Shown here one piece after another: positions 589 to 34,209 of a stretch of 34,212 nucleotides of DNA (the stretch's first letter is position 1; the number at the start of each line of letters is the position of its first letter). The stretch covers positions 1-34,212 of the forward strand of contig JAFUVE010000036.1 in assembly GCA_017483765.1 (NCBI GenBank), in the 5' to 3' direction. The DNA comes from Bacteroidaceae bacterium. GTDB lineage: Bacteria; Bacteroidota; Bacteroidia; Bacteroidales; Bacteroidaceae. The position numbers and the translations under genes are program-made. The notes under the pieces were generated by a model. The model saw only the letters and a program-made list of their open reading frames with translations. It was not told the DNA's origin and made no database searches.

Positions 589-605
589 TTTGAGGTTTGA
601 AGTTT

Positions 606-749
606 ATTGACATGATTTTCGGCTGCGCTCAACATAGCTCAAGCAAGCTTGGCTCTGTGTTCGCTTGCACGAAAATTATTGACATGATTCTCGGCTGCGC
701 TCAACATAGCTCAAGCAAGCTTGGCTCTGTGTTCGCTTGCACGAAAATT
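606..749. repeat. 72-bp tandem duplication carrying a 62-bp hairpin (two copies)
   Basis: Positions 606-677 and 678-749 are two copies of a 72-bp unit that differ by one base by eye. Each unit holds a 62-bp imperfect palindrome (615-676 and 687-748). The outer stem is ATTTTCG with CGAAAAT (ATTCTCG in the second copy) and the centre is CAAGCAAGCTTG. Related hairpins lie at 774-835 and 34060-34121. Confidence 0.85.
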
Positions 750-773
750 GAGATTTGAAGTTTCGCTTCGCAG

Positions 774-835
774 GATTCTGTCACGACTCAACAGTGCTCA
801 AGCGAGCGTGGCACTGTATTCGCTGCTCCAGAATC
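774..835. repeat. Diverged 62-bp hairpin repeat, third copy
   Basis: Outer stem GATTCTG (774-780) pairs perfectly with CAGAATC (829-835), and inner stem CAGTGC pairs with GCACTG. The length and central layout (CTCAAGCGAGC, then TTCGCTGCT) match the two copies just upstream, while the outer stem sequence differs. The rest of the 589-996 gene-free stretch holds short repeats and no credible gene. Confidence 0.75.
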
Positions 836-8164: not shown

Positions 8165-8336
8165 GTTGGCTCGGTTTTTTATGAAGACGAGAAGACAAGA
8201 AGACGAGAAGACAAGACGATAGTCATCTGACGGACATACATAAAGTAATCAATGGTCTTTACACCCCCTTCGGTTCCCCCGTTATCGGGGGACAGAAACC
8301 CTACAGTTAACAGAAGGTGAGGCAAGTTATTTTTTT
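8165..8336 (+). mobile_element. MITE-like repeat element, copy A (172 bp)
   Basis: The right end GAGGCAAGTTATTTTTTT (8319-8336) is intact, while the left end (GTTGGCTCGG) is a decayed form of GTTGCCTCG. The core GAAGACGAGAAGACAAGACG is shared with copies at 10083-10193 and 21054-21186, and TGACGGACATACATAAAGTA is shared with the 21-kb copy. A perfect CCCCCG/CGGGGG hairpin (8276-8291) is private to this copy. A 13-codon frame, ATG 8181 to TAG 8222, lies inside. Confidence 0.65.
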
Positions 8337-10082: not shown

Positions 10083-10193
10083 AATAAGTTGCCTCGTTTT
10101 CATGAAGACAAGAAGGAGCGAAGACTAGAAGACAAGACGATAGTCTGCTATGGCCAGCATTCCCATGAGACAGAAACAGAGGCAAGTTATTAT
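10083..10193 (+). mobile_element. MITE-like repeat element, copy B (111 bp)
   Basis: Left end AATAAGTTGCCTC (10083-10095) and right end GAGGCAAGTTATT (10179-10191) are inverted repeats with one mismatch. The inner ATGAAGACAAGAAG and AGAAGACAAGACGATAGTC segments match the other copies. The 42-nt frame at 10102-10143 is kept in length but interrupted by an in-frame TAG. It fills most of the gap between guaA and the DUF2264 gene. Confidence 0.7.
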
Positions 10194-13592: not shown

Positions 13593-13624
13593 GTTGTTTT
13601 GAGAGTTTAGAGTGAAGTTTGTGA

Positions 13625-13705
13625 TTCTAAGTGTTCTAGATATTCTAGGTGTTCTAGATATTCTAGATGTTCTAGGTGTTCTAGATTTACTAGATATTCT
13701 AGATT
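13625..13705. repeat. 9-bp tandem array, TTCTAGATA/TTCTAGGTG type (9 units)
   Basis: Nine contiguous 9-bp units run from TTCTAAGTG to TTCTAGATT. The array begins 11 bp beyond the stop of the metallopeptidase gene and ends before the transporter start. It produces a spurious plus-strand reading frame of VLDILG-type repeats, which is not a gene. Confidence 0.9.
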
Positions 13706-13716
13706 TATGGGGTTCA

Positions 13717-16407
13717 TTATTCTACATAGACTTTGAAGGTGTCGATGCGGTTGTCGTGGTGGAGAGCCAGGATGTACATGCCGCGCTGGAGGGTAGCTGG
13801 TAGCTGTACTGTGGATGAGGGGCTGACCTTCTGCTCGTCGATTATGATGCCGCTGACTCCTACGAGGTGGGCCGTAACAGTCTCTGGAGAGATACCTCCG
13901 AGGTCGAGCTGCACCTGCTGTCCTGCATGAAGTACACCCGACAGGATCTTGATGACCGGCTCCCCGCCTTTTCCAGTGTCGGATTTGGCCAGGTCGATTG
14001 CGGTGGGGGTGGTGAATGTTTCGTCCTCCAACTGCTGCTCATAGAAGTACCATTTCACGTCTTTCGATGCCACCTGGTAGGCTCCTTCGCCCAGCTTGAT
14101 ACGGTAGTCCCAGTGCTTCTTTCGCTGTTCCTCGCCGGTGTAGATGTAGTCGGTGTTAGCCACGACCACGAATACGACTCTGTTAGCCGGTGCGTCGTTG
14201 TCGTCCCATGTCAGCTTCATCTTTCCGCAGGTGACCGGCTGGCTGTAAACCGTCTCGCCCTTTGCTGTTCGGTAGCAGAGTTGGGCGCGCATCTGCTCGT
14301 CTTCCGGCCTGAAGAAAATCTCACATCCTGAGTCTCCGACATGCACCGGTATGATGTTTCCACCGCTCCAACCCGGGTTGGTGATGGTGTCGGGTGCCAT
14401 CCATCCTTCTGCGTCGTTCTGCTCGAGAGTCTGGTAAGGCGTCAGTTTGAAGGGCGCCACGTCAATCCACTTGGGCTCAAACTCGGCCTTCACCGTCGAT
14501 CCGAAGTAGTTGTTGAGCAGGTTACGGCATCCGTTGGAGAATCCTCCGAAGTCCATGGTTGCAAGCCGTGCCCTGTACTGGAGTATGAGGCTACGCATGG
14601 CTTCATCTCCGATGCCTTCCACACGCTCCGCGCTGTTCCCTTTTGCTATCCCTTCGAGTACACGAGTTCGGCAGTATCTCCAAATCCATGGAACAGCTCC
14701 TTCTCCTACGCACTCTCCGAGGAAGAGCGGGAACACCTCTCCGTACTGTACACCTCCGATGAGGTTTCTCCAAGTACACACCTGTCGTCCCCCCTCGTAC
14801 ATGTTGACCCCTTCCGCGCTGGGTCCACCGAATGATCCGTCCTGCAGCCATCCCGAGTAGCACTCAATGGGCATGAATGGGCAGATGAGGTTTCCAACTC
14901 CGAGCCATCCCGGCGATCCGTATACGTTGTCGCGCTTGGCGTTCATCGCCATCTGCAGCCATACGTTTCCTCCTTCGTGGAACCACGCCGACTGCTTCAC
15001 ACCTTCCATGTCGGCGAAAAGCGCGTGTATTCCCTCGTGAATCATCGCCTCCCGCTGGTAGTCTCCGTCGTTCCATTTCCGGTCGGCGTCGTCGCGGAAC
15101 CGGCTTACGGGATAGTAAGATGCCCAGACGCAGGGCCATGTTGCTCCGTCGATGTAAGTTGAGCTTTGGTACCCGCCCTCGGTAGTCTGCGACTCGTTGT
15201 CGTTGCTGAGTCCGGAGCCGAAGACATAGACGAATGACTTCCACCCTTTTCTTGCGTTGATGTCGGGTGGCCATCCCATCTCGTCGCGGATGTAAGCGAA
15301 GTCGACGTCGTATTTCTTCATCATGTTCGTCATCGCATTGTAGTCGTTGGCTCCTACGGTCGAGTTGAGGTCGTCGCCCCAGAATACTGACCACCATTCG
15401 CCTTCCACCACGTTAGCCGCCTTTCCGTTCTTCTGCTTGAATGAGTGCACCTTCTTGGGCTGCGGGAATCCGTTGGGGTACTCGTCTCTGAAGTCGTAGC
15501 TCCAGAATGGTGTGTTCGCCTTCCAGTCGTAGCGTTCGCCCTGGTGCGCCTGAACATCCACGTAGAACTGGCAAGTCTGTGAGCGTCTGTTTCCGTTGGC
15601 ATCGGTGACGATGAGAATTGATGTGTATGCTCCAGAGCTCTCTTCCGTCACGTCGCTCAGCGTGAAGTTCTCGTCGCCGTAGACTCTCAGGCTCTTTCCT
15701 GAAGGGCCTTTCACGTTGAATCGGAGGCTCTCTCCTTCGTTCAGCGGCAGGAATCCCAATGTGATGTCGTCTCCCACGTTTGCTTGCACGCAGTTGTTTC
15801 GCTCAGCGTTTTCCCCGTTCACACTCACCATTGGATTTGCAATCCATGAGTCGATGCGGTCGGGTCTGTGGTTGAACGCCGGCATGTCGGTCTCCACCGT
15901 CTCTTTGTCTCCGATTGTCAGAGCGAAATGGAACTCGACGGTGTCCGCAGTTGTCTCGTTCACCAGAGCCTGCTTCCATGTGTATAGGTTTCCGTCCTCC
16001 ACCATTCCTTCCACCGTCGTGATGCTGAAACCTTTCGTGTCGTCGAATGCGCATGCTATGGCACGCTTTCGGTTAGCCGCGTTCACCGCCAGTCCGTTCG
16101 CGTTGACGTAGTGGCCATACGGTGTGAGCGATGATCCGTAGGTGTATCTGCCGGATGTTGGGTTCACGGAATAGAACTTCACGTTTCTGGATTTCATTGC
16201 CGCGCTGAACGATCCGTCTGCCTGGCAGTTGAGTTTCGTGCCGAGCACGTTTGCGTTGGTAGGGCATTCCGTGGGGTTGGCTTGGTTGAGCGTTCGCCCT
16301 ATCGTGAAGTTGTAGACGGTCTTGCTGCCGGCGGCCAGGGCGTTTCCGCCCGTGGCCATCGTCAGCAGACATGCCGCCAATATTGATTTTGTCAGTGTTA
16401 TTTTCAT
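13717..16407 (-). CDS. Secreted HExxH metallopeptidase-like protein (896 aa) with T9SS-like tail
   Basis: Signal peptide MKITLTKSILAACLLTMATG (cleavage near ALA-AGS). The region near 190-290 reads as Ig-like strands (VGDDITLGF, FTLSDVTEESSGAY). The central part has AMIHEGIHALF with an HExxH zinc motif at 457-461, followed by WFHEGGNVWLQ whose Glu478 is a good third ligand, giving a gluzincin-like layout. The surrounding region (YDVDFAYIRDEMGWPPD, FVYVFGSGL) may correspond to DUF6055. The C-terminal 30 residues (LQRGMYILALHHDNRIDTF) fit a T9SS sorting tail. Likely an outer-membrane-exported or surface protease or glycan-associated hydrolase. It lies 83 bp downstream of the S46 peptidase gene, same strand, with a 9-bp repeat array between. 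Catalysis is inferred from the motif. Confidence 0.7.
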   Translation of the reverse strand: MKITLTKSILAACLLTMATGGNALAAGSKTVYNFTIGRTLNQANPTECPTNANVLGTKLNCQADGSFSAAMKSRNVKFYSVNPTSGRYTYGSSLTPYGHYVNANGLAVNAANRKRAIACAFDDTKGFSITTVEGMVEDGNLYTWKQALVNETTADTVEFHFALTIGDKETVETDMPAFNHRPDRIDSWIANPMVSVNGENAERNNCVQANVGDDITLGFLPLNEGESLRFNVKGPSGKSLRVYGDENFTLSDVTEESSGAYTSILIVTDANGNRRSQTCQFYVDVQAHQGERYDWKANTPFWSYDFRDEYPNGFPQPKKVHSFKQKNGKAANVVEGEWWSVFWGDDLNSTVGANDYNAMTNMMKKYDVDFAYIRDEMGWPPDINARKGWKSFVYVFGSGLSNDNESQTTEGGYQSSTYIDGATWPCVWASYYPVSRFRDDADRKWNDGDYQREAMIHEGIHALFADMEGVKQSAWFHEGGNVWLQMAMNAKRDNVYGSPGWLGVGNLICPFMPIECYSGWLQDGSFGGPSAEGVNMYEGGRQVCTWRNLIGGVQYGEVFPLFLGECVGEGAVPWIWRYCRTRVLEGIAKGNSAERVEGIGDEAMRSLILQYRARLATMDFGGFSNGCRNLLNNYFGSTVKAEFEPKWIDVAPFKLTPYQTLEQNDAEGWMAPDTITNPGWSGGNIIPVHVGDSGCEIFFRPEDEQMRAQLCYRTAKGETVYSQPVTCGKMKLTWDDNDAPANRVVFVVVANTDYIYTGEEQRKKHWDYRIKLGEGAYQVASKDVKWYFYEQQLEDETFTTPTAIDLAKSDTGKGGEPVIKILSGVLHAGQQVQLDLGGISPETVTAHLVGVSGIIIDEQKVSPSSTVQLPATLQRGMYILALHHDNRIDTFKVYVE

Positions 16408-16433
16408 GTGTCAGTTAGTTGTTTTGGGGGGGA

Positions 16434-16478
16434 TTCTATATATTCTAAATTTTCTAGATTTTCTAGACTTTCTAGATT
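16434..16478. repeat. 9-bp tandem array, TTCTAGATT type (5 units)
   Basis: Units TTCTATATA, TTCTAAATT, TTCTAGATT, TTCTAGACT, TTCTAGATT, then a T run. The array starts 12 bp beyond the S46 peptidase stop, on the gene's 3' side. Confidence 0.85.
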
Positions 16479-16490
16479 TTTTTGCAGTTT

Positions 16491-18596
16491 TTATTCGATG
16501 GTGAGTTCTTTGATCAGTCGTTTGCCCTTGCTGTAGTTTTCGATGACAGAGAGCACGAAGCGAATGTCGACACCGATGGTGCGCTGTAGGTTGTCGTCGA
16601 AGAGGATGTCGCCCGACATGGCTTCCCAGTTACCGTCGAACGCCAGTCCGATGAGCCTTCCCTTTCCGTCGAACATACCCGATCCGGAGTTACCGCCGGT
16701 GATGTCGTTGTTCGTGAGGAAGCAGAGGTGCATGTCCTTGTCCTTCTTGTCGAGGTATTTCTTTCCGAACTTTCCTTTCTTGAGCCATTTGTAAACCGGC
16801 TCTGTCAGTTCGTAGTCCGGGTTGTTGCCCTGCTTCTCGTATTTGTCGATGATGGACTGTGAAGGCGTGAAGCACTCATATCGCACGCCCTCGTTCGTGG
16901 TGTATCCACCGACGAGTCCGTAGCTCATACGGAGCGTGAAGTTCGCATCTGGATAGTATTCCTTGTCGCTGTTCATCTCTCGCAGGGCATCTCCGAGCAG
17001 CCGTTCGTATTCCTGGGCCTCGTCGCTGCCGTACATGGCATAGAGCTGCATGATGGCCTGCAGTGCGACTCCGAACATCGGGTCAGTTCCGAGATATTCG
17101 TTGAGGTCGGTCTTCTTCTTCAGTTCCTCGGGCTTGGTGAGAATGGTTTTGCCGTAGACCATGTCGGCGAACGCCTCGATGTCTCCTCCCATCTCCTTGT
17201 CGATTTCCTTGTAGAACTCCGGCCAGTACTGTTCTGGCACGTGCTCCTTGTAGCATTTCAGCGACACGATGAACAGTTGCTTGTCTGTGGTCATGTCGAT
17301 GTCCTTATATGCTTTCTCCACTTCTTTCTTCAGGTTTGGCTTGTCCTCTTTCATGACTCCGAGGAACTGGCTGATGGCGAACTGCATGATGTCGCTTCCT
17401 GAATAGAAGCACTCTTCCCACATGGTGTATGCGTAGTCGCGTTCTTTTGTGTTCTCGTAGATGACCTTCAGCGAGTCGAGCATGGTGGCGTATTTAGCCT
17501 GTCGTGCTGCATCCTTGGCCACCCAGTCCATGATTTCCTTCTCAGTGGCTTGCTTCTCAGCTACGACGTTGAGGTCTTTGAGAGCCTTGTTCATACCGAT
17601 GGAGTTCTTCCAGTAGTTGGAGCTTTCTGCGTATTTTGATGAGTACATGATTCGCAGTGCGTCGCTTGAGTCCATCGCCTTCTTCATGACTTCCTGCTTC
17701 GCTTCTCTCGCCGTGATTCGTGGTATGTTCTCACATTCCACAGTGTGGTCGATTCCGTAGCTGCTGAGGTATCGCTCGGTTGATCCCGGGTAGCCGAATG
17801 TCATGCAGAAGTCGCCGGGCTTGTATCCTTGTGTGCTCACCACCGCATAACGCTTGGGGTGGAATGGCACGTTGTCTTTGCTGTACTCAGCCGGTTTGTT
17901 GTCCTTTCCTGCATAGATTCTGAAAACAGAGAAGTCGCAGGTCTGACGTGGCCACATCCAGTTGTCGGTGTCGCCTCCGTGCTTACCGAGACATGATGGT
18001 GGTGCGAACACGAGGCGCACATCGCTGTACTTCAGATAGATGCTGAGATAGTACTTGCTTCCTTTGTAGTAGGGGACCACAGCGGAGTGGATTCCGTTGT
18101 CAGGGTCGTCGATGGCGTCGGTCAGCACTTTCGTGACGCTGTCCACAACCGCCTCCCGCTGCTTGCGGTCCATGTCGGGAGTGACGTATTTCAGAATTTG
18201 GTCAGTCACGTCTGTGGTTCCGATGTGGAAGTCGACGTAAAGGTCCTCGTTAGGGAGTTCGTCTTCGAAGTCCTTGGCGAAGAATCCGTCTTTGAGATAG
18301 TCGTGCTGTGGGGTAGAGTGGTCCTGTATGGCCCGGTATCCGCAGTGATGGTTTGTGAAGACAAGTCCGTCGTTGCTGACCACGACTCCGGAGCAGAATC
18401 CTCCGAATTGTACGATAGCGTCGTTGAGTGACGGGTGGTCCTTACTGTAAATCTCGTCGTGGCTCAGTTCCAGTCCCATGCTCTTGAGCACGGAGTCCGT
18501 CTTAGCAGAGAGATTGCAAATCATCCACATGCCCTCGTCGGCGAAGGCAGTCAAAGATGCCATGAACAGCATGGCAGAGAATAAGATTTTCTTCAT
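16491..18596 (-). CDS. dpp7: S46 dipeptidyl-peptidase, DPP7-type
   Basis: A 701-residue protein with signal peptide MKKILFSAMLFMASLTAFA and mature start DEGMW. This is the S46 family of periplasmic or surface dipeptidyl-peptidases. All three catalytic landmarks are present: His in TNHHCGY (83-84), Asp in GGDTDNWMWPRQ (about 212), and Ser637 in TGGNSGSG. Eighteen residues past that serine (655) is Gly in AFDGNWEAMSGD. At this site (673 in Porphyromonas gingivalis), DPP7 has Gly and prefers hydrophobic P1, while DPP11 has Arg and prefers acidic P1. DPP7-type specificity is therefore predicted. It removes dipeptides from oligopeptides for uptake. It is first of a probable unit with the metallopeptidase, nucleoside transporter, lipoprotein and DUF2264 genes. 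Confidence 0.93.
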   Translation of the reverse strand: MKKILFSAMLFMASLTAFADEGMWMICNLSAKTDSVLKSMGLELSHDEIYSKDHPSLNDAIVQFGGFCSGVVVSNDGLVFTNHHCGYRAIQDHSTPQHDYLKDGFFAKDFEDELPNEDLYVDFHIGTTDVTDQILKYVTPDMDRKQREAVVDSVTKVLTDAIDDPDNGIHSAVVPYYKGSKYYLSIYLKYSDVRLVFAPPSCLGKHGGDTDNWMWPRQTCDFSVFRIYAGKDNKPAEYSKDNVPFHPKRYAVVSTQGYKPGDFCMTFGYPGSTERYLSSYGIDHTVECENIPRITAREAKQEVMKKAMDSSDALRIMYSSKYAESSNYWKNSIGMNKALKDLNVVAEKQATEKEIMDWVAKDAARQAKYATMLDSLKVIYENTKERDYAYTMWEECFYSGSDIMQFAISQFLGVMKEDKPNLKKEVEKAYKDIDMTTDKQLFIVSLKCYKEHVPEQYWPEFYKEIDKEMGGDIEAFADMVYGKTILTKPEELKKKTDLNEYLGTDPMFGVALQAIMQLYAMYGSDEAQEYERLLGDALREMNSDKEYYPDANFTLRMSYGLVGGYTTNEGVRYECFTPSQSIIDKYEKQGNNPDYELTEPVYKWLKKGKFGKKYLDKKDKDMHLCFLTNNDITGGNSGSGMFDGKGRLIGLAFDGNWEAMSGDILFDDNLQRTIGVDIRFVLSVIENYSKGKRLIKELTIE

Positions 18597-21053: not shown

Positions 21054-21186
21054 AAAAAATAAGTTGCCTCGTTTTTTATGAAGACAAGAAGAAAGGAAGA
21101 CGAGAAGACAAGACGATAGTCAACTGACGGACATACATAAAGTAAGTCCCTACCGTCAACTGGATGGTGAGGCAAGTTATTTTTTT
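21054..21186 (+). mobile_element. MITE-like repeat element, copy C (133 bp)
   Basis: Left end AAAAAATAAGTTGCCTC (21054-21070) and right end GAGGCAAGTTATTTTTT (21169-21185) are inverted repeats with one mismatch. The core matches copies A and B. An inner TGACGG/CCGTCA pair could fold. The 13-codon frame ATG 21078 to TAG 21119 is intact. Confidence 0.75.
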
Positions 21187-33972: not shown

Positions 33973-34209
33973 GTTCTAATAATTAATAAATCCAAGAGAA
34001 TTATCTTTGCCTGTGTTTGTCTCTTTTTGGCATCTTTGCTCTTAAAATTGACTTCGTCGAATCATCATCGTGACTCGGCCATTTAAAAGCAAGCTTTTAT
34101 GGCTCTCGCTGCTTGATGATTTGAACCGTAGCTCGCTACGCTTCTGCGAGTTTGCGAGCAAATCTGCTCAAAAATAGTCTAAACACAGCCTAAAGCTAAT
34201 TTTTAGAAC
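33973..34209. repeat. 237-bp long imperfect palindrome enclosing a 62-bp hairpin
   Basis: The ends GTTCTAATAATTA (33973-33985) and TAATTTTTAGAAC (34197-34209) are inverted. Further in, CTTTGCCTGTGTTTGTCTC pairs well with the reverse complement of 34157-34194 (CTTTAGGCTGTGTTTAGAC). At its centre is a 62-bp hairpin (34060-34121) with perfect outer stem AATCATCA/TGATGATT and core AAGCAAGCTT. Likely a non-coding mobile or structural repeat. The right flank is cut by the window end, so target duplication cannot be judged. Confidence 0.7.

Follow-up and report, generated by a model that had tools for sequence, protein, structure and literature searches.

A REP-like, apparently mobile hairpin family with its own anatomy in Bacteroidales

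REP-like mobile hairpins have been best studied in Proteobacteria. A 34,212-nt stretch of DNA from a Bacteroidaceae bacterium, referred to here as the window, contains four hairpins (H1 to H4) that raise the question of whether elements of this type also occur in Bacteroidales and, if so, how they move. An initial annotation of this DNA had claimed that all four hairpins have the same length of 62 bp, that their outer arms vary in sequence yet stay paired and that a core of CTC, AAGC(A/G)AGC and CGCT(T/G)(G/C) is kept. Selection on structure was suggested, as in REP/BIME elements moved by a RAYT-type enzyme or in protein-binding DNA.

All four hairpins were found where the annotation had placed them, each spanning 62 nt and containing the core elements as described (Table 1). 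Pairing of the varying outer arms held overall, the exception being H2, whose arms (ATTCTCG/CGAAAAT) have one broken pair. H1 and H2 form a tandem pair with a period of 72 and 96% identity and, hence, are not independent examples. In single-strand DNA folding, H1 (z = −3.0) and H4 (z = −2.5) folded better than shuffled sequences, while H2 (z = −0.6) and H3 (z = −1.2) were not clearly above the shuffles. As only H1 and H4 gave clear single folds, it is the family, rather than individual folds, that carries the case. A search of the window with Rfam produced no match above the gathering score. Two other types of repeat were observed in the window, namely, arrays built of TTCTAGATN-type 9-nt units (905-972, 13616-13728 and 16416-16501) and a 75-nt interspersed repeat (ATGAAGACGAGAAGAC...CGATAGTC; 8174-8248, 10095-10169 and 21071-21145) with a GAGGCAAGTTATT block nearby.

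Table 1. Hairpin units and adjoining heptamers in the window
Feature	Position	Strand	Basis
Two GARRTTT heptamers (GAGGTTT GAAGTTT), array left of H1	592..605	+	Read from sequence; class A arrays counted separately
5′ leader ATTGACATG of H1 unit, G-ending, adjoins hairpin foot	606..614	+	Sequence
H1, class A hairpin (ATTTTCG...CGAAAAT)	615..676	+	Model match, 91.6 bits
5′ leader ATTGACATG of H2 unit (tandem, period 72)	678..686	+	Sequence, repeat analysis
H2, class A hairpin, one broken outer pair	687..748	+	Model match, 86.7 bits
Two GARRTTT heptamers right of H2 (GAGATTT GAAGTTT)	750..763	+	Read from sequence
5′ leader CGCTTCGCAG of H3; other class B copies carry identical leader	764..773	+	Sequence
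H3, class B hairpin (GATTCTG...CAGAATC)	774..835	+	Model match, 69.5 bits
5′ leader ATTGACTTCGTCG of H4	34047..34059	+	Sequence
H4, divergent hairpin (AATCATCA...TGATGATT)	34060..34121	+	Model match 34061-34120, 29.1 bits, E = 1.4e-5

A BLAST search with positions 606 to 860 of the window, in which 40 of 156 candidates were scored, detected at least 47 matches in the genome of origin (G000). A covariance model was built from 28 copies, including H1 to H3; H4 was left out of the training set and was recovered in a search of the window (Table 1). The genome-wide covariance search proposed in the initial annotation yielded at least 151 matches in G000 at an E value of ≤1, a lower bound based on the scoring of 150 of 1,588 candidates with models whose E values are rough. 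H4 was not among the matches listed, and the loci retrieved for these matches contained 159 rows or 153 distinct copies. Within the 28-copy alignment, 94.4% of the cells paired and two-sided change was observed in 13 of the 18 pairs. Cells with two-sided change numbered 32, compared to 4.8 ± 2.0 in shuffled alignments; four of five measures of covariation exceeded those for all 500 shuffles, the fifth exceeded those for 496 of the 500, and the true register outscored slid registers on all five measures. Further copies were abundant and pairing was kept, in contrast to the absence of further copies or the uncompensated decay of stems that the annotation had named as evidence against its reading.

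Pairing was then quantified in 104 distinct 62-nt copies from G000 and its relatives. The outer arms were Watson-Crick paired in 694 of 728 cells and the inner pairs in 1,027 of 1,144 cells, with pair 21-41 of the inner helix being frequently unpaired, and 29 of the 35 different outer-arm pairs retained at least six of seven pairs. The unpaired CTC of the 5′ side and parts of the TCGCT of the 3′ side were among the least variable positions. G·T combinations were present in 21 cells versus 41 cells for A·C, 12 of which occurred at one pair, and this lack of a G·T preference does not favor an RNA of the hairpin strand. Pairing was looser (237 of 287 outer cells Watson-Crick) among 41 distinct 62-nt copies collected with a strict core pattern from named genomes and viral contigs. 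The length proved less rigid than had been proposed: 62 nt was the commonest value (172 of 343 model-match rows from five alignments, in which overlapping loci repeat some copies), with 60 nt (54 rows) and 61 nt (27 rows) also represented.

With about 150 copies in 3.1 Mb, the hairpins of G000 are mostly intergenic. Only 30 of the 153 copies overlapped an ORF (mechanically called, 90 aa or more), and the neighboring ORFs were at a median distance of 128 bp. Of the 104 intergenic copies located between two called genes, 62 had a gene 3′ end on their upstream side, and orientation relative to the two neighbors was mixed (+/+, 37; −/−, 27; +/−, 25; −/+, 15). According to local GC skew, the hairpin was on the G-rich strand at 60 loci and on the opposite strand at 34 (P = 0.0095), a bias that is confounded by gene strand.

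The unit consists of a 5′ leader of ∼10 nt, usually ending in G, and an imperfect hairpin of ∼62 nt, amounting to ∼72 nt in class A. Outer arms divided the 153 copies into classes A (57 copies), B/E (27), C (17), G (15), D (7) and F (5), with 25 others, and several classes had surroundings of their own. Of the 57 class A copies, 45 had same-strand GARRTTT heptamers in the 30 nt upstream, 44 had them downstream and 38 had them on both sides, as compared to 0 upstream and 3 downstream for the opposite strand. GATTTAC-type repeats were found upstream of 15 and downstream of 7 of the 17 class C copies, and TTCACTW-type repeats were found upstream of six of the seven class D copies. Class A copies were never located beside class C or D repeats, and this absence is the sole internal control for these counts, which were made with loose patterns and without shuffling. 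Other crossings between class and array did occur; in the largest, GARRTTT preceded 6 of the 27 B/E copies. The tetranucleotide at the 5′ foot of 137 full copies was CATG in 68, GCAG in 13 and GTAG in 12. A stem of 2 to 5 bp adjoining the 5′ foot was possible in 120 of 136 copies versus 56 of 136 further upstream; as the copies are related by descent, the presence of such a small stem is suggestive only.

A further kind of surrounding was another hairpin. In a separate scan of the G000 loci, AACTTCC or AATCTCC arms were found on 18 distinct units. Seventeen of these were nested in a host hairpin, within its 5′ internal loop and at CGAY^T, while the eighteenth was in tandem behind another unit. 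The sequence preceding the nested units was CGA(C/T)T or a TGATT variant, the hosts had several kinds of outer arm and the expected 3′ junction, T^TC, could also be read in 13 of the 17. These nested copies may stem from a few events followed by duplication of the composite.

Differences between close genomes were assessed by comparing G000 with 20 stretches (313 kb) of a second genome, G012. Aligned identities were mostly 90 to 98%, with one of 75%. Orthologous places were obtained for 27 hairpin rows, equivalent to 26 sites because one locus (L124) was counted on both strands. Uniform scoring with a coarse rule classified 18 rows as present, 7 as absent and 2 as diverged. Among the rows scored as present, L027:1512 was shifted in position and L015:1516, L069:1501 and L020:1628 had a clearly different core; among those scored as absent, L063:2753 and two rows of L065 were within larger indels and L027:325 had a weak match. 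Absences were clean at L020:1512 and L073:1501, where the net difference was 65 bp each, and at L078:1501, where it was 86 bp; these values correspond to a unit of ∼72 nt less or plus heptamers. The leader ATTGACATG of H1 belongs to the stretch that is present or absent between sites of the two genomes. At L015:1516 and L069:1501, the two genomes contained different hairpins at different places of one array. At L128, both genomes share a class C hairpin, inside which G000 has a unit spanning 76 alignment columns that G012 lacks. No consistent target duplication was detected at the compared sites, where junctions are ambiguous by one T and by the heptamer repeats; within heptamer arrays, a 7-bp duplication is indistinguishable from array variation. 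These differences are probably insertions, although in a comparison of two genomes some or all could be losses.

One locus provided a caution for the interpretation of pairing. At L124, the arms are equal in the G000 copy (L124:1501-1563) but unequal, as is usual, in the G012 orthologue. It looks as if one arm was copied from the other, converting an imperfect hairpin into a perfect palindrome, which is the footprint expected of template switching, a process described as generating paired changes in RNA genes (PMC8794818, in the part of that article consulted). Given such arm-to-arm rewriting, some paired changes may have arisen without selection on structure, and covariation in a DNA hairpin is by itself no proof of selection. 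Thus, the maintenance of pairing through paired change that underlay the proposal of selection on structure was confirmed, but the step from pairing to selection was weakened. Template switching can explain some of the covariation but not the unequal unpaired bases kept in most copies.

Many, mostly intergenic copies, maintained pairing, presence or absence at orthologous sites and class-specific, mostly strand-specific surroundings were all observed. We consider it somewhat probable that the hairpins are noncoding, nonautonomous mobile elements that move in single-stranded form, much as REP and IS200/IS605 elements do. The moving unit would be the 5′ leader plus the imperfect hairpin, and the folded single strand would be the substrate. 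Recognition may depend on the conserved bases that stay unpaired, namely, the 5′ CTC and part of the 3′ TCGCT, and the leader or outer foot may select the target. The enzyme would be a Y1 HUH nuclease supplied in trans; in the text consulted, TnpAREP of Escherichia coli is described as cutting at C|T (PMC8266576). A more elaborate version, possible but on balance doubtful, is that one hairpin chassis has radiated into classes, each having its own landing address, either 7-mer arrays or the internal loop of a sister hairpin, and that a shared single-strand transposase acting in trans reads this address from the leader and outer foot. The hairpins would then be retargetable inserters of ∼72 nt and the 7-mer arrays would either be made by that enzyme or serve as its feeding grounds.

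Genes for Y1/RAYT proteins, whose presence was another check proposed in the initial annotation, were indeed found in G000. A PF01797 search detected Y1 genes at C62 (L031) and C95 (L032), and a search with L032 detected additional long RAYTs at C78 and C103. Among the four genes examined (L031, L032, L228 and L229), a model match within the stretch was observed for L031 alone and on one side, a nested hairpin being located just 5′ of the gene. With ∼150 copies in 3.1 Mb, a single hairpin in this position is unremarkable. L031 was rejected as the dedicated enzyme, its nearest relatives elsewhere (L163 to L165) having no adjoining model match and the hairpin-rich genomes G005, G006 and G029 having no match to L031. 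A long repeat flanks this gene (L031:640-1060 and 1910-2080), with the nested hairpin in the 5′ copy and none in the 3′ copy.

The long RAYTs (L032:1210-2256, L228, L229 and relatives) are RAYT-like proteins of ∼310 to 410 aa, present several times in some genomes, and an alignment of 16 exhibited a Y1 core followed by a conserved C-terminal extension of ∼140 aa. Beyond the Y1 core, no convincing match for the extension was detected in Pfam, NCBIfam or PDB, only weak single matches. That this clade is the mobilizer, a narrower form of the single-strand reading, appears rather unlikely, even though hairpins and long RAYTs tend to co-occur. In 61 genomes, long RAYTs at an E value of ≤1e-15 were present in 9 of the 13 genomes with at least 10 hairpin matches versus 3 of the 48 others (P = 7e-6); at ≤1e-3, the figures were 10 of 13 versus 9 of 48 (P = 2e-4). 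In 151 genomes, 26 of the 45 with at least five matches were positive versus 14 of 106 (P = 5e-8), or 24 of 45 versus 13 of 106 (P = 5e-7) when RAYT matches weaker than 1e-20 were dropped. In all of these tests, the cutoffs were picked after the tables had been seen and phylogeny was ignored. Against this association, no such RAYT was detected in 19 to 21 of the 45 genomes rich in hairpins, and the long RAYTs given a repeat scan often carry other palindromes. A search for a cognate RAYT flanked by the repeats, covering 44 long-RAYT stretches from this and other genomes, detected a model match (E < 0.01) in only two: L239, with hairpins 455 and 1,480 bp downstream of the gene, and L405, with one 311 bp upstream, for both of which an association is possible. 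Nor did a repeat scan of six stretches support the hairpins as the palindromes of the long RAYTs; mostly other repeats were found, located around the gene in L032, L228, L231 and L239 and, as palindromic repeats, inside L229, with little in L236. No transposase gene stood out as repeatedly flanked by hairpins in 20 stretches of four other genomes, for which ORF starts were judged by eye. Around the hairpins at 117 loci drawn from named genomes and viral contigs, a single RAYT-like frame was present, at a distance of 2.8 kb; since genomes contain many copies, this scarcity says little either way. The proposal of REP/BIME elements moved by a RAYT was, therefore, upheld as regards multicopy, mobile-like DNA but not as regards a mobilizing RAYT.

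Mobility is not the only way to account for such a family. The hairpins could be passive quasi-palindromes, with duplication and array recombination spreading the copies and template switching keeping the arms paired in the absence of a transposase or selection. The unequal and equal arms of the L124 orthologues, the paired changes published for RNA genes (PMC8794818, as far as consulted) and the tandem units with periods of 72 in the window and 73 in L151 are consistent with this explanation, which we nonetheless regard as unlikely, since repeated correction would erase the asymmetry of the conserved CTC and TCGCT bases and passive spread alone would not generate class-specific, mostly strand-specific surroundings. 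A role as RNA, with the hairpin being kept as a terminator, a protector of mRNA 3′ ends or a small RNA, would fit the gene 3′ ends upstream of 62 of 104 intergenic copies; it is made very improbable by the mixed orientation to neighbors, the absence of an excess of G·T over A·C cells, the absence of an Rfam match in the window and the differences between close genomes at several sites. We attach equally little probability to the hairpins being DNA sites that bind a protein, such as a nucleoid protein or topoisomerase, and serve chromosome organization. The conservation of unpaired bases at conserved spacing would be expected of such sites, but matches were present in 27 of 61 genomes, several 99%-complete genomes had none, and hairpin-in-hairpin units and varying array occupancy resemble mobility rather than placement.

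Under the favored reading of single-strand mobility, the closest known systems are REP/BIME elements with TnpAREP, which similarly have many, mostly intergenic copies, an imperfect hairpin with unpaired internal bases, a leader 5′ of the foot and signs of mobility, with the nested copies described here also having a C^T-like junction. The present hairpins differ in their length of ∼62 nt, in the head-to-tail arrangement of the tandem copies, in the class-specific repeat arrays and in that no flanking cognate RAYT was found; moreover, the foot of GTAG-type REP is a minority form here, well behind CATG. As neither the GTAG foot nor the flanking RAYT was characteristic, the hairpins were not classified as classical REP. 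Atypical structures flanking TnpAY1 genes of subclass 2.6 (PMC6006769) are similar in being from Bacteroidetes, lacking a GT[AG]G consensus and having further copies elsewhere in the genome, but no RAYT was repeatedly flanked by the hairpins in our data; this comparison was by description only and drew on part of that report. IS200/IS605 nonautonomous elements appear to share mostly strand-specific placement at short target-like sequences and the lack of a consistent target duplication, while neither a pair of distinct left and right ends nor a related full-length IS could be found for the hairpins.

Three other repeat families were compared through the portions of the reports consulted. CGTC-tagged palindromic repeats (PMC3733652) are short palindromes that also occur in Bacteroidetes and, according to that paper, have no dedicated transposase, but they have a CGTC tag and stems of 8 to 9 bp in place of the other leaders and two-helix, ∼62-nt hairpin found here. 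PINSR of the Prevotella intermedia group (PMC4755523) is likewise intergenic and from Prevotella, with 177 and 184 copies in two strains, and is set apart by its description as a 188-bp repeat without terminal inverted repeats, compared to a hairpin unit of ∼72 nt. The TAACTGA repeats of Beggiatoaceae, Cyanobacteria and some Bacteroidetes (PMC4679880) also form intergenic arrays of 7 nt; the heptamer differs from those reported here, and no array-inserted hairpin is mentioned in the portion consulted. In the main texts accessible to us of open-access literature on RAYT, REP and palindromic repeats, Bacteroidetes, Bacteroidales and Prevotella, no description of this hairpin was found.

The family extends beyond G000. 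A search of relatives detected matches at an E value of ≤1e-3 in 27 of 61 genomes, and a family search detected matches at ≤1e-5 in 84 of 151 genomes, G000 being included in both. A strict DNA pattern for the core was present in at least 112 stretches of named genomes and in five viral contigs; the taxa among the pattern matches listed were Prevotella, Prevotellaceae, Bacteroidaceae, Bacteroidales, Rikenellaceae, Alistipes, Paludibacteraceae, Porphyromonadaceae, Prolixibacteraceae and others. These data indicate a real, apparently mobile, REP-like hairpin family of gut Bacteroidales with an anatomy of its own. If mobility is confirmed, REP-like mobile hairpins extend across Bacteroidales with their own anatomy and target logic, and the pairs of genomes differing by single units, including a hairpin within a hairpin, make mobility directly testable. 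The five viral contigs bearing the core (L400 to L404), which may be phage or host DNA, are from IMG/VR; the match in L402 (93.3 bits) equals that of the best copy in G000.
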